Positions 7,067 through 14,011 of a DNA stretch of 20,926 nt are shown here, piece by piece (within the stretch, counting starts at the first letter, position 1; every line of letters starts with the position of its first letter). The stretch covers positions 1-20,926 of IMG/VR virus record IMGVR_UViG_3300030107_001926; one strand, 5' to 3'. The notes below the pieces were generated by a model. That model searched no databases. It was not told the origin of the DNA and was given only the letters and a program-made list of their open reading frames with translations. This stretch comes from a virus. The position numbers and the translations under genes are program-made.

Positions 7067-8779
7067 CTAGGGGGCAACGCTCATTCCAGGATCGTCAGTA
7101 AACAGACGAGCGTCTCCTGAAGGAGTAGTCATATTTTCTTCCAGCCTGCTTTGTACCTCATTAGCCGCTGCAACTGCGATTTCATCAGCGTCTGCATTAG
7201 TCTGCGCGTTTACTGTCACTGATATATTATTATTATTATTTAGGCGCTGCATTATTACGGGGCCGAGATCCGCCGGTGTGACCGAAGTATCGCCCTGCAA
7301 CCTTCTAAGATCAGCCTGCATCTCGGAGAGGCGGGGCATATTTCTAGGAAAGAAGGAGTTGCCAACAGCGGCAGCATTTTCTCTTTGTAATGCTGTAGGC
7401 TCTTGAAAAGGGTTGATATCGGGGGCTACAGTATCCCAATCAAGCACCGCCGTATACCTGCCTAAACTAACAAGGCCGTTTAGTACAGCTTGCAGGAGAT
7501 TCATTATGTCGTGCAGGACTACTCTGAAGGCGTCCCAGCCAGCTACAAGATCCTGCATTCGATCGAAGGACCAATCGCCTAAGACCATACCTAAATGAGC
7601 AAGAGCCTTCGCAGTGTGGCCTATAGCTTTGGGTATAGATTTGATAGTACCCAGCAAACCATCAAAGAAATTAGCCATGCCAGCCCGTGCCCGCTCGTCT
7701 TGACCGAGCATCTCCCCAAGGAGAGAGGGCCTGCCCTCCATAAACGCCCAGAGGTCATCTAGAGCGATGGCTAAAAAAGCCAGCCCTGCGAGGAGGAGCG
7801 ATAGCTTCCAGGTAGCTGCGTTGAAAACTACTGCTAGTCTTCTCAGACTAACAATTAGGTTAACTAATGCTACTGTTGCTAGGGCGCTCGCAGCGAGTCG
7901 AAATAGTTCGGTATTTTCTCGCAGCCAGCGAACAGCATCTGCCGCTACAAGGAAAGCAGCTCCCAGCTTTTGACCAATAGTCTCTGCCAGCTTGTTAACG
8001 TCACCGACTCCTTCGGTTACAGCCTTAACAAACTCAGTCAGCCCTTTTCTAAAGCCGAAATCACCGATGATTCCGACCATTTTCTCCCAGGCTACCGCTA
8101 AGTTAGAAGTAGCTCCGATAAGGCTGTTCATGTGGCGATTTACGCCGCCACCAAACCTCGTTCTACCCTGCTCTCTGAGCCAGTCCAGAAGCTCTGTTAG
8201 CTCCATAGGTACAAGCTCTTCTCCTGTAGGAGTCATGATATTTAAGGTGTCGTCTTCCACCTTAATTTCTGTACGCATTATGCCTTCTAAGGCTCTAGGC
8301 ATTCCGCGAGCAGCTTTCAAAGCAGCGTCTACCAAATCCCCCACGTCCGCGCCAAAAGTGGCGGATACGTTTGAGAGTTCGTGGAACATATCCTCAGTAG
8401 GAGCTAGGCCCGCTCCTCTAAGCATAATCCAGGCGTTAGTAAGCTGCGTTAAAGTAGAAGGCAGTTCCGTAGCCATAGCCTGAAGGCGCGCCTGTGCAGC
8501 GGCTGCTGCATCGGTAGAACCTTCTATAGTAACTAGGACGTTACCTAACCGTTCAAACTCGGCTACGGTTGATACAACTCCACGCAAGAGCTTGACCCCT
8601 GCGATGGCAGCAATGGAGATAGCAACACCGGCCATAGCACGGCGAAAACGGCCCGCGCTGTTTTCTGCCCTGCGAACCTCGTCCCCTACTTCGCGCACGC
8701 CTCGTTTGGCTACACGTAGCTGGGTCCGATTTAACCGGACAGTAAGCCGCCAAACTAATTCTCCTACACTACCTCCCAC
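7067..8779 (-). CDS. Tail tape measure protein
   Basis: At 570 residues this is the longest gene here and sits directly after the frameshifting chaperone, as tape measure genes do. Near the N-terminus a hydrophobic stretch (about 48-68) is followed by the typical segment FERLGNVLVTIEGSTDAAAA and an LPSTLTQLTNAWIMLRGAGL stretch (106-125). Two further hydrophobic segments (about 293-312 and 323-340) end in DDLWAFMEGR, also usual in the family. With the rule of about 1.5 angstrom per residue it predicts a tail near 85 nm; that is inference. The start is GTG at 8779, preceded by an AAGGAAG Shine-Dalgarno site at about seven bases, and it lies 11 bases inside the end of the frameshifted chaperone. 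A run of five Asn codons occurs at about residues 512-516. Confidence 0.88.
   Translation of the reverse strand: MGGSVGELVWRLTVRLNRTQLRVAKRGVREVGDEVRRAENSAGRFRRAMAGVAISIAAIAGVKLLRGVVSTVAEFERLGNVLVTIEGSTDAAAAAQARLQAMATELPSTLTQLTNAWIMLRGAGLAPTEDMFHELSNVSATFGADVGDLVDAALKAARGMPRALEGIMRTEIKVEDDTLNIMTPTGEELVPMELTELLDWLREQGRTRFGGGVNRHMNSLIGATSNLAVAWEKMVGIIGDFGFRKGLTEFVKAVTEGVGDVNKLAETIGQKLGAAFLVAADAVRWLRENTELFRLAASALATVALVNLIVSLRRLAVVFNAATWKLSLLLAGLAFLAIALDDLWAFMEGRPSLLGEMLGQDERARAGMANFFDGLLGTIKSIPKAIGHTAKALAHLGMVLGDWSFDRMQDLVAGWDAFRVVLHDIMNLLQAVLNGLVSLGRYTAVLDWDTVAPDINPFQEPTALQRENAAAVGNSFFPRNMPRLSEMQADLRRLQGDTSVTPADLGPVIMQRLNNNNNISVTVNAQTNADADEIAVAAANEVQSRLEENMTTPSGDARLFTDDPGMSVAP
7225..7240 (-). 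repeat. Trinucleotide repeat encoding an Asn run in the tape measure
   Basis: Five consecutive ATT units on the plus strand (AAT on the coding strand) give a five-residue Asn run inside the tape measure. It is in frame, so changes in repeat number by whole units would keep the gene open. Confidence 0.75.
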
Positions 8780-9463
8780 GGCGACTTCCTTTTTTCTTGC
8801 GGGCCTCGGAGCGGCTCTGCTCAGTATAGTGCTGTTTTAACGAATGGAAAATATCTAAAACATCGGCTGCTTTAGACAAATCCTCTAAGTTCCAACAGTG
8901 CTGGATTTCGTGGAGGCTTGCTCGCCCTTCTGATTGATACCAGACTTGGAAGATAAGCCACTCATCAGCGTACTCATGAACTCGGTCTTTGATACTTTGG
9001 GGAATGCTGTCTTCATTTGTTTTACGAGCCGTTGACCCCACGCTCTTAGAGGAACGACTCGCTCTACGAAAAAACCTGAGTAGCTCTCCCTGAGCACAGC
9101 AGCGAGCGCCCTTTGCATCTCCCCGAGATTGCCCTGAAAAACTAACTCAATTTGTGACTTAGTTAATTTTACACCGTCCCGATCTGCGTGTAGCAGGAGG
9201 TCGGTTATCAGGTTGCTATCGCCCGCTGAGATAATACGGTGGGCGGCTGCGTTGATAGCATTGTCTATAGGATCTCCCTCAGACTCGTAGCCAGAAAACT
9301 CTGCCATCGCAGCGTCTACTAGCTGGTCAATCATCTCGGTAGCAGTGCCTGTCTGCTGGAAACGATTGAGGAGTTTTATTGCTTTAAGGGAGGTGATTTT
9401 GAGGATGTTATATTCATGCTCCTCTCCACCATCATCGAGAATTACTACGGGCTCTCGTTCCAT
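8769..9463 (-). CDS. Tail assembly chaperone, long product made by -1 frameshift
   Basis: This is the extended (lambda GT-like) form of the tail assembly chaperone. Translation starts at the ATG at 9463, reads 132 codons to the heptamer T TTT TTC at 9074-9068, slips back one base and continues in the -1 frame to a TAG at 8769-8771, giving 231 residues. The -1 frame is open from about 9150 to 8769 with no stop. Its 99-residue extension contains the segments DRVHEYADEWLIFQVWYQ, a W-x-LEDLSKAADVLD helix and a basic Lys/Arg tail (EARKKKGSRRGR), like other extensions that contact the tape measure. The product ends 11 bases inside the tape measure start, consistent with coupling. The reading is inferred from signal and gene order, which agree with established cases in lambda, P2 and many other phages. 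Confidence 0.85.
8885..9463 (-). CDS. Tail assembly chaperone, unshifted product
   Basis: The ordinary product (lambda G-like) is 192 residues from the ATG at 9463 to a TAG at 8885-8887. It shares residues 1-132 with the long form and then has its own 60-residue tail, which is Ser/Thr/Lys-rich in its last 35 residues. The shared N-terminal part has a beta start (PVVILDDGGEEHEYNI) followed by a helical body with TSLKAIKLLNRFQQ, as usual for tail assembly chaperones that bind the tape measure and recruit tube subunits. It is normally made in large excess over the long form. A GGAG Shine-Dalgarno site lies about ten bases upstream of the ATG. It comes between the tube and tape measure genes, the canonical position. 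Confidence 0.85.
   Translation of the reverse strand: MEREPVVILDDGGEEHEYNILKITSLKAIKLLNRFQQTGTATEMIDQLVDAAMAEFSGYESEGDPIDNAINAAAHRIISAGDSNLITDLLLHADRDGVKLTKSQIELVFQGNLGEMQRALAAVLRESYSGFFVERVVPLRAWGQRLVKQMKTAFPKVSKTEFMSTLMSGLSSKSGINQKGEQASTKSSTVGT
9025..9074 (-). other. Programmed -1 ribosomal frameshift signal (slippery site plus stem-loop)
   Basis: The coding strand has the heptamer T TTT TTC at 9074-9068, placed in frame so that the codons TTT and TTC can both re-pair after a one-base backward slip. After a six-base spacer (9067-9062) a nine-pair stem follows: 9061-9053 with 9033-9025, with one G-U pair and a 19-base loop. Part of the loop (TGGGG, 9040-9036) can also pair with CCCCA at 9002-8998, which would make a pseudoknot; that last step is speculative. 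Heptamer, spacer and stem fit the standard layout for such signals. Confidence 0.85.
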
Positions 9464-9490: not shown

Positions 9491-9913
9491 TTAGTTTCCT
9501 CCGACGTTGGATATCACGTCCACCATTCGGAAGACCCACTCTCGCTCTTCTACGCCAGAGTTAAAAGTACTAACAGGTCGGCTTTTAATGTAAGCCTTTG
9601 TACACTGAATTACAGAGTAGCCGCTGTTATCTACGATAGTAAGGGGCAGAGCACCTGCGCCGGATCTAAGGTCCGCTTCTAGGAAAGCAGACAGCGTAAG
9701 ATTCGACTCAGAGGTCTGCATAAGAGTGAGAGTACACTCAGCGCCGTAATCGTTCTTACGAGCACGAGACTCTTCACCGTCTGCTCCCACAACCGGCTCC
9801 CAGACATCCTCGTTAAATTCTACAGACACGCCACCGTTCTGCCCGAACCCGGTGATGACGGCACCACCGTAGGTGACAACTACCTGCTCAAAATTATACG
9901 TCTTCAGACCCAT
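9491..9913 (-). CDS. Tail tube protein (DUF3277-like)
   Basis: This 140-residue protein follows the sheath gene and precedes the chaperone, the position of the tail tube subunit that lines the DNA channel. The sequence begins MGLKTYNFEQVVVTYGG and has alternating strands with GFGQNGGVSVEF and ECTLTLMQTSESNLTL, then a C-terminal strand WVFRMVDVISNVGGN, the pattern I associate with DUF3277 tube proteins paired with DUF3383 sheaths. I choose the ATG at 9913 over the GTG one codon upstream because an AAGGGG Shine-Dalgarno site lies six bases before the ATG but only three before the GTG. It is short for a tube protein but matches this family. Confidence 0.83.
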   Translation of the reverse strand: MGLKTYNFEQVVVTYGGAVITGFGQNGGVSVEFNEDVWEPVVGADGEESRARKNDYGAECTLTLMQTSESNLTLSAFLEADLRSGAGALPLTIVDNSGYSVIQCTKAYIKSRPVSTFNSGVEEREWVFRMVDVISNVGGN

Positions 9914-9923
9914 CACTCACCCC

Positions 9924-11288
9924 TTAAGATAGCGGGAGATATGCAGTTGCAGTGAGCGTGTGAATAGCGCCCGCTAGAACCACTTCAATTTGGTATTCGT
10001 ACACACGATTAGTCACGTTAGCAGCAGAAACTTGTGATCTCGTCTGGAACGTGTACTTAGGGCTAACTGTCTCAGTATCGGACTCAGCCCGTCGCATGAA
10101 GTGACCGGCCTCAATCCCTCTTTCTGTGACGTCTCTGACATCGGCAGAAATGATGGCAATACCAGCATCTGTGTAAGGAATCTTCTTCCCTGCGTTGCTG
10201 TATTCTGTGAAGCGTGCCTGGTGAGTTTCGATAAGCCGAGTTCTGAACCAGTCAGACGCAAGGATATTATCAATATAGGTTCCGTCAGCGACAACTCCTT
10301 TGAAGGTAGAGCCGCTGCCGCCCAGGGTAACGTAGTAGTTTACGTTTTTGCTTTCTAGTGTGTCCTGCTGAGCAGTAGTTAGCGTGTCTACCGAGACACT
10401 TTTGATGGTGTAATGAGCCCAGGTTGTGGACTGAAGATCCGGGTTAACTGCCAGCTTCCCAGCGATCCAGCCAGCGTCAGCGTATTCGCTATCCGTGGCG
10501 TGGTATAGGAGAGCAGTGCGGGCCAAAGAGTTCTGCTTAAGGACGGAGCCTACATCATCGGCATCTGCCGAGTACGCGTTGTCTTTAACAGAATCAGTTT
10601 TTGTCTGGGCTACGTAGAGTCGCTTGTTAGATTCTGCCCAGGTAGAAAGAGAAGCGATCTCCCAATCGTGCCGGACTGTACTAACCAGACCGTACCAGTC
10701 TGAATCTTCTGCGTAGATATCAGCCAGCAAGATGGCAGAGCCTGCGGCTGCTACATCCGTACTAAACTCGCCGAGATTAGAAGTAGTAAGCGAAACAGTA
10801 AAAGCTATACCGCCATATTCTGCAGTAAGTTCTACGTCCGTTCCGGTGGCATCTGCCTCTACTCCGTTGTCAGCTTCATCGATAAGGGCGGCAAGCTCTG
10901 TTGCAATCTGAGCGTGGCTTTTACCGGAGGCAGTGTACGTCACGGAGGAACCGTTGACTACGGCGGTATAGTCTCCATCGTCATTAGAAGTGACAGTAAA
11001 GTGGGACTCTTGCCGGACGGGAGCAGCTAGTCCCTTACCTACTTTCCATTTTTTAGGAGGTAGTTTCTGAGAAACCATAGCACTGGCAGCCTTGTACGCT
11101 GCGTCTGCGGTTGTCCACCCAGCGTCTACCATCTCCTGCAGTGTGCCGTAGGAATCGATAGTCTTGGAAGAAGCAGTTCCCGCAGCGGGCCAGCTGCCGC
11201 TCATAATGAGAACAGTACCAAAACCCGCTTGGGAAATAGCCTGTCCCTGGAGAACTACAGAAATATTAGTTACACTGTCGATGGACAT
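9924..11288 (-). CDS. Contractile tail sheath protein (DUF3383-like)
   Basis: This 454-residue protein is the contractile sheath that drives the tube through the envelope, and its presence defines the phage as a myovirus. The start, MSIDSVTNISVVLQGQ, leads into FGTVLIMSGS and a YGTLQEMVDAG helix, as in DUF3383 sheaths. The middle has a small beta domain (about 90-165) with DGDYTAVVNGSSVTYTA. The conserved core includes WYGLVSTVRHDWEIASLSTW (about 198-217), a segment GWIAGKLAVNPDLQSTTWAH and, near the C-terminus, strands with YEYQIEVVLAGAIHTLTATA. An AGGAGG Shine-Dalgarno site lies about nine bases before the ATG at 11288, the strongest such site in the tail block, fitting a protein needed in high copy. 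Confidence 0.88.
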   Translation of the reverse strand: MSIDSVTNISVVLQGQAISQAGFGTVLIMSGSWPAAGTASSKTIDSYGTLQEMVDAGWTTADAAYKAASAMVSQKLPPKKWKVGKGLAAPVRQESHFTVTSNDDGDYTAVVNGSSVTYTASGKSHAQIATELAALIDEADNGVEADATGTDVELTAEYGGIAFTVSLTTSNLGEFSTDVAAAGSAILLADIYAEDSDWYGLVSTVRHDWEIASLSTWAESNKRLYVAQTKTDSVKDNAYSADADDVGSVLKQNSLARTALLYHATDSEYADAGWIAGKLAVNPDLQSTTWAHYTIKSVSVDTLTTAQQDTLESKNVNYYVTLGGSGSTFKGVVADGTYIDNILASDWFRTRLIETHQARFTEYSNAGKKIPYTDAGIAIISADVRDVTERGIEAGHFMRRAESDTETVSPKYTFQTRSQVSAANVTNRVYEYQIEVVLAGAIHTLTATAYLPLS

Positions 11289-13675: not shown

Positions 13676-14011
13676 TTACTTATTGCTAGTGCCAAACTTC
13701 CTGGGCTTCTTAGCGGCTTTCTTAGTCGCTTTCTTAGTCGCCTTCTTAGGGGCTTCCTCGGCAGCAGCTACAGGAGCAGGCTCTGGCTTAGCAGGAGGCT
13801 TAGCAGGAGGCTTAGCAGGAGGCTTAGGAGCAGGTGCTGCCTTGACCTCTGGCACTACCGTTTTATCTCGATACGCCTTGCCTGCACGCTCGAAAGCAGC
13901 AGCAGCCGTATCGTGAAGATAGACGACATCGCCAGGAGCAAGTGGTCGGCCTTTTGGGCCGACACACCTGCGCCTAACAATCATTCGTACAAGTGGGCTC
14001 GAATTAGCCAT
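13676..14011 (-). CDS. Head-accessory protein with a Lys/Ala histone-like tail
   Basis: This 111-residue protein follows the capsid gene. Residues 1-45 form a compact part with RMIVRRRCVGPKGRPLAPGD and an AFERAGKAYRD helix, resembling small post-capsid proteins that have a G-x(4)-GD and A-x-x-x-G-A pattern. The rest is low complexity: a Pro/Ala/Lys segment with PPAK repeated (about 60-77) and a highly basic end (KKATKKATKKAAKKPRK) like histone H1 tails. The basic tail suggests contact with DNA or an acidic partner, which is inference. An AAGG Shine-Dalgarno site lies about six bases before the ATG at 14011. Two sets of 12-base repeats encode the tail. Confidence 0.7.
   Translation of the reverse strand: MANSSPLVRMIVRRRCVGPKGRPLAPGDVVYLHDTAAAAFERAGKAYRDKTVVPEVKAAPAPKPPAKPPAKPPAKPEPAPVAAAEEAPKKATKKATKKAAKKPRKFGTSNK
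13707..13754 (-). repeat. 12-base tandem repeat encoding the Lys/Ala tail
   Basis: Four units of 12 bases, close to TTCTTAGTCGCT on the plus strand, repeat head to tail (13707-13718, 13719-13730, 13731-13742, 13743-13754). The second and third differ at one base; the outer two diverge more. In frame they encode the KKAT/KKAA pattern of the basic tail. They are a likely site for copy-number change. Confidence 0.85.
13785..13832 (-). repeat. 12-base tandem repeat encoding PPAK units
   Basis: Three identical 12-base units GGCTTAGCAGGA on the plus strand (13785-13796, 13797-13808, 13809-13820) are followed by a degenerate fourth (13821-13832). In frame they encode repeated Pro-Pro-Ala-Lys. Identity at the nucleotide level points to recent slippage expansion. 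Confidence 0.9.
13945..13963. other. GC-rich hairpin at the start of the post-capsid gene
   Basis: A perfect seven-pair inverted repeat (GTCGGCC and GGCCGAC) flanks a five-base loop inside the coding region, about 50 bases after the gene start and 60 bases after the capsid stop. No T-run follows on either strand, so it is not an intrinsic terminator. It might affect mRNA stability or the step-down of expression after the capsid gene, but that is speculative. Confidence 0.4.

Follow-up and report, generated by a model that had tools for sequence, protein, structure and literature searches.

Most long-tailed phages are already known for frameshifting in the tail chaperone gene, and the slippery heptamer of the lambda G/GT pair is G_GGA_AAG. 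In lambda, a short and a long chaperone result from a -1 shift just 5' of the tape measure gene (PMC5009743), and in phage P2 the E and E+E' proteins are linked by a -1 shift at TTTTTTG (PMC3091744). A -1 frameshift in the tail assembly chaperones (TACs) of the related Vandenendeviridae and Andersonviridae was described in 2025 (PMC12846349). The cassette of the Escherichia coli dnaX gene combines a 5' Shine-Dalgarno (SD)-like element, a slippery heptamer, and a 3' hairpin, and SD elements that act in -1 shifts are spaced 9-14 nt from the site (PMC5009743).

The locus analyzed here lies in a viral sequence of 20,926 nucleotides (IMG/VR record IMGVR_UViG_3300030107_001926), the whole of which is referred to as the window. 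We consider that a -1 programmed frameshift most probably yields two tail assembly chaperones, one short and one long, in this phage (probability of about 0.94), a reading that is strongly supported, as protein families, gene order, and relatives agree. The mechanism is already known from lambda G/GT, P2 E/E', and the Vandenendeviridae; the window adds an example with unusually complete stimulators.

Phages of the Vandenendeviridae and Andersonviridae (Adele, KPP10, and the KIL phages) share with the window homologous sheath and tube genes, the gene order, the -1 frame relation, and a poly-T site near the chaperone end (PMC12846349). Their T domain is also homologous, a profile (E=2e-10 to 2e-12) matching those of KPP10, KIL2, and PAK_P2. 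They differ by a shorter chaperone and by an in-frame GTT TTT C site, whereas the window carries T_TTT_TTC; in KPP10, KIL2, and PAK_P2 the site is either GTT TTT C or GTT TTT T, as reported for Vandenendeviridae, and the part of that description used here mentions no conserved hairpin (PMC12846349). P2, likened here by description, is also contractile-tailed, and its -1 shift on T_TTT_TTN likewise lies in the interval from the tube gene to the tape-measure gene (PMC3091744). Lambda differs in being a siphophage with another heptamer and a low shift rate.

Gene order and the two reading frames

Profile matches identify the phage as contractile-tailed and place the chaperone gene after the tail-tube gene and before the tape-measure gene (Table 1). 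Of the lambda G/GT-type traits of Xu, Hendrix and Duda, the sequence shows two overlapping ORFs between these genes and an in-frame X_XXY_YYZ heptamer near the 3' end of the first. The lineage is distant from named phages, the best named-phage sheath matches being about 28% identical.

Table 1 Features of the window on the minus strand and slippery heptamers of relatives
Feature	Position or locus	Strand	Basis
Tail sheath (DUF3383)	9924..11288	(-)	PF11863 E=2e-21, phrog_205 E=7e-78
Tail tube protein (KPP10 Orf10-like), immediately 5' of chaperone	9491..9916	(-)	PF11681 E=4e-9, phrog_280 E=3e-35
Tail assembly chaperone, frame-0 product (TAC-N), 192 aa	8885..9463	(-)	PF21822 E=6e-6 (above cut-off), phrog_1613 E=2e-7
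SD-like AGGGAG, 11 nt 5' of heptamer	9086..9091	(-)	Sequence; GAGGAG aligned in L002; role inferred
Slippery heptamer T_TTT_TTC	9068..9074	(-)	In-frame, X_XXY_YYZ register
Putative stimulatory stem, 5' arm, CGAGTCGTT	9053..9061	(-)	9 bp plus possible G.U 9062/9024; sequence, folding
Inner helix, 5' strand CCTC, pairing with GGGG 9039-9036 in hairpin loop	9049..9052	(-)	Predicted in window and L002
Inner helix, 3' strand GGGG (earlier assigned to pseudoknot)	9036..9039	(-)	Predicted folding
Putative stimulatory stem, 3' arm, AACGGCTCG	9025..9033	(-)	Sequence, folding; same seven outer pairs in L002
-1 frame C-terminal (T-type) domain of fusion, 99 aa plus stop	8769..9067	(-)	phrog_4625 E=4e-4; 31-relative profile E=1.3e-10; 43% identity to L002
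Tape measure protein, immediately 3' of chaperone	7067..8779	(-)	phrog_1716 E=9e-21
C_CCA_AAC	L006, L017, L018		
G_GGA_AAC	L022		
G_GGA_AAG	L047		Read by eye
A_AAA_AAG	L040		
A_AAA_AAA	L041		
C_CCT_TTG	L005		
C_CCT_TTC	L019		
G_TTT_TTC (related heptamer)	L046		

Frame 0 runs from ATG 9463 to a stop at 8885, and its product scores 27.2 bits against PF21822 (Phage_TAC_15), above the curated cut-off of 22. The -1 frame has no stop between 9146 and 8772 (375 nt, about 296 of them 3' of the heptamer), and its terminal stop (8771-8769) overlaps the start of the tape measure gene at GTG 8779. Shifting would give a product of 132 + 99 = 231 aa. A reading made earlier from the sequence only had predicted the 192- and 231-residue products and an open -1 frame of about 380 bases up to the tape measure start, and the ORF coordinates agree with it on each count. 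That reading had also pointed to a basic C-terminal extension. The linker after the shift is indeed positive in 28 of 33 loci, but this is uninformative because most sampled loci show a similar basic character when the 25 codons upstream are translated in the -1 frame; we therefore dropped the basic linker as a conserved functional feature.

Frame 0 continues for 60 codons beyond the slippery site in the window, compared with 51 in the nearest relative (locus L002) and 8-34 in the others, which speaks against a frameshift. The dual-coding overlap of the window (8885-9067) is thus unusually long.

Two other proteins of the window have no Pfam match. At the tail-fibre end of the module, positions 298-1800 encode a 500-aa protein with repeated segments that look beta-propeller-like by eye, and a 111-aa protein adjoining the capsid gene (13676-14011) has a low-complexity Pro/Ala/Lys tail (PAKPPAKPPAK...KKATKKATKKAAKK).

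The heptamer and its flanking elements

On the minus strand, the heptamer reads ...tca ggT TTT TTC gta gag... and lies in the required frame, as first proposed. It is the sole in-frame XXXYYYN heptamer (Y = A/T) inside the chaperone gene; the genes of the window hold 11 of these in about 6,609 codons (about 0.0017 per codon, or 1 per 600). A spacer of 6 nt (9067-9062) separates it from a stem of nine pairs, one of them G.U (9061-9053/9033-9025). Both had been described in the sequence-only reading and were recovered exactly, from the minus-strand sequence and with ViennaRNA, which lengthens the stem by a tenth, wobble pair (9062/9024) and adds an inner CCUC/GGGG helix.

The 52 nt starting 4 nt past the heptamer fold at -18.7 kcal/mol, and among 3,000 dinucleotide shuffles 0.47% attain this value, as do 2.4% of the full set of 52-nt segments of the minus strand. 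Their counterpart in L002 folds at -22.5 kcal/mol, reached by 0.07% of shuffles, and a hairpin shortly after the heptamer therefore beats chance in both (99.5% and 99.9% of shuffles, respectively), with a signal that weakens when a longer piece is folded (z = -0.9 and -1.6). In L002, seven of the nine pairs (the identical outer ones) and the same inner helix are kept, and two inner pairs are broken. The sequence-only reading had looked to homologues for a kept heptamer and for compensatory changes in the stem: the heptamer is kept, and compensatory changes were not found between the window and L002, as this is the single close relative found. The predicted stem is thus supported by its energy and by one relative, without compensatory changes.

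The 3' stimulator could, as a variant of the frameshift reading, be an H-type pseudoknot instead of a plain hairpin, formed by the stem and by pairing of the loop bases TGGGG (9040-9036) with CCCCA (9002-8998), as had been suggested. The five bases are indeed complementary, and loop lengths of 12, 2, and 22 nt would be possible. However, about 0.6 such matches between the 19-nt loop and some 40 downstream bases are expected by chance (our own estimate). In the window as well as in L002, the hairpin is predicted to contain the GGGG strand paired with CCTC, and the CCCCA partner is lacking in L002, so that the loop-to-downstream pairing is not conserved between these two sequences. We rejected the pseudoknot on these grounds and regard it as improbable.

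The AGGGAG element upstream was absent from the sequence-only reading. Its predicted SD duplex reaches -8.2 kcal/mol (rank 0.07 among in-gene positions), and its 11-nt distance from the heptamer fits the 9-14 nt range (PMC5009743). The GAGGAG of L002 aligns with it despite an R-to-E codon change (R-E in the window, E-E in L002). From the sequence, AGGGAG, the heptamer, and the hairpin make up a dnaX-like layout. This resemblance is one of layout only and implies no relation: dnaX is a cellular gene with an A_AAA_AAG site and about 50% shifting, and the shift truncates its product, whereas that of the window would extend it.

The window, L002, L012, L016, L026, L037, L044, and L055 show strong SD-like pairing upstream, and in the others this pairing is weak; about half of the relatives have a strong element, partly dictated by the protein motif, and others lack one. 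The excess across the family (mean rank 0.29, bimodal) is suggestive and is confounded by the L-E-V/I-N codons and by relatedness. Near the heptamer, the window, L002, and some of the C_CCA_AAC/G_GGA_AAC group have strong hairpins (z near or below -3), whereas those of L039 and L041 are of moderate strength (z about -2.5). The signal had been called clearer than in most phages of this kind, which is fair for the stimulators, as most sampled relatives are without a strong hairpin and none is predicted downstream of the TTTTTTG sites of P2-like phages (PMC3091744); the heptamer itself is of the commonest type in the sample. A common stem for the whole family was rejected, no comparable hairpin being present in most T_TTT_TTN relatives. 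In the C_CCA_AAC or G_GGA_AAC subgroup (L006 7652, L017 7609, L018 7617, L022 8453), a GCGAT...ATCGC hairpin follows the heptamer, with inner pairs that vary by locus and an energy z of -1.8 to -3.7.

Conservation in relatives and rival readings

Loci of relatives were drawn from IMG/VR, genome contigs, named phages, and plasmid prophages. The nearest, L002 (IMG/VR 3300006753_000361), is 74% identical in the sheath, 52% in the chaperone, and 43% in the -1 extension; it carries TTTTTTC at 2469 and keeps the -1 reading frame. From the heptamer to the stem end, 35 of 45 sites are identical between the window and L002, and the remainder of the dual-coded overlap has 62 of 108, a difference that is suggestive, although the frame-0 protein is also well conserved near the heptamer. 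Single-sequence queries found no relatives, either with the chaperone (viral contigs and named phages) or with the tube protein (viral contigs). The DNA pattern of heptamer plus stem and a two-sequence chaperone alignment each matched L002's contig alone, and stem covariation is therefore confined to two sequences. Genome-contig scans gave at most three distant loci.

A profile built from the -1 extensions of 31 relatives, with the window and L002 left out, was searched against the six-frame ORFs of the window and found its -1 ORF, the next ORF scoring E=1.9. The downstream ORF is thus conserved at the protein level, and in the sequence its -1 frame stays open across the site. It might instead be a separate gene started internally at GTG 9041 and translationally coupled to the chaperone gene, without any frameshift. 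This GTG, which would give a 90-aa ORF, is kept in L002 with a purine-rich sequence ahead, and related phages usually have such ORFs annotated as small genes apart. However, the -1 frame is already open upstream of the slippery site, T-domain similarity reaches the heptamer in relatives with in-frame heptamers of different sequence, a heptamer in frame at the junction would be needless for an independent gene, and GTG 9041 falls within the predicted hairpin. We find a separate gene very unlikely.

At one and the same protein motif, xNF/Yxx(F)F, T_TTT_TTN is found in frame both in the window and in 23 diverse relatives (L002, L004, L012, L014, L016, L020, L026, L029, L031, L034-L039, L042-L045, L048, L051, L053, and L055), and other XXXYYYZ heptamers are found in nine further relatives (Table 1). 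In L024 and L025, the T domain is present downstream and a heptamer was not found. As in-frame heptamers occur about once per 600 codons in the window, their sharing is not due to chance, but the counts are not independent events because the relatives are akin to one another. These sites also bear on transcriptional slippage, in which mRNAs with one U more or less, made on the T6 run, would be translated normally into the fusion. The homopolymeric site fits this reading, as does a final protein that would be nearly the same. However, the runs for which bacterial slippage is usually cited have a length of about 9 (PMC5009743) and so exceed T6, relatives carry CCCAAAC, GGGAAAC, GGGAAAG, or AAAAAAG instead, which suit tandem tRNA slippage, and the 3' hairpin and SD-like element point to the ribosome, making this explanation quite implausible. 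It is scarcely credible that gene decay, or an indel from sequencing or assembly, divided a single reading frame: homopolymers are common error sites, but the independent contig L002 and named isolates of several genera share the T6C and the frame relation.

Proposed frameshift and variation within the family

The anatomy, the gene order, and the conservation of the heptamer and of both frames are read directly from the sequences; from them and by analogy with lambda and P2 we infer actual slippage, its rate, the effect of the stimulators, and the domain roles. With a programmed -1 frameshift, most ribosomes would continue in frame 0 and make the 192-residue chaperone, and a minority, with Phe-tRNAs on TTT and TTC, would move back by one base to TTT-TTT; their product would be the 231-residue fusion, with the 99-residue C-terminal domain added. 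The 3' hairpin, and probably also the 5' AGGGAG, would pause or pull the ribosome at the slippery site. By analogy with lambda gpG/gpGT, the shared chaperone part may coat the tape measure protein, and the added domain may recruit tail-tube subunits.

A tentative and rather doubtful extension is that, in the window and L002, a three-part cassette (SD-like element, T_TTT_TTC, and two-tier hairpin) lifts shifting well above the few percent of lambda, with both C-terminal frames of the chaperone coding for more than 50 codons, the stimulators having been gained in this lineage and most relatives having a bare heptamer. In phages with a DUF3383 sheath, the frameshift appears to be kept even though the heptamer changes.

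In phages D6E and AP45, a Lysinibacillus prophage, and a Bacillus pumilus plasmid, all four of them Bacillota-type members, the T-type domain follows in the +1 frame and not the -1 frame (L009 4402-4851, L033 6169-6600, L050 5713-6172, L054 5572-6019), and every overlap holds TTT then C (TTT CAA or TTT CTT). The T-domain match is significant for L050 and L054 and weak for L009, and L033 is not among the matches listed. Given these members, the direction of the shift may have switched within the family.

PHROG families 4625, 4364, 10409, 8811, and 16039, labelled as of unknown function, match frameshift-type C-terminal domains of tail assembly chaperones. These matches rest on the -1 extensions of L002, L004, L016, L018, L035, L037, L038, L039, and L045; the -1 extension of the window, taken alone, matches the first of these families. 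A practical correction of the annotation would be to relabel all five as chaperone C-terminal domains.
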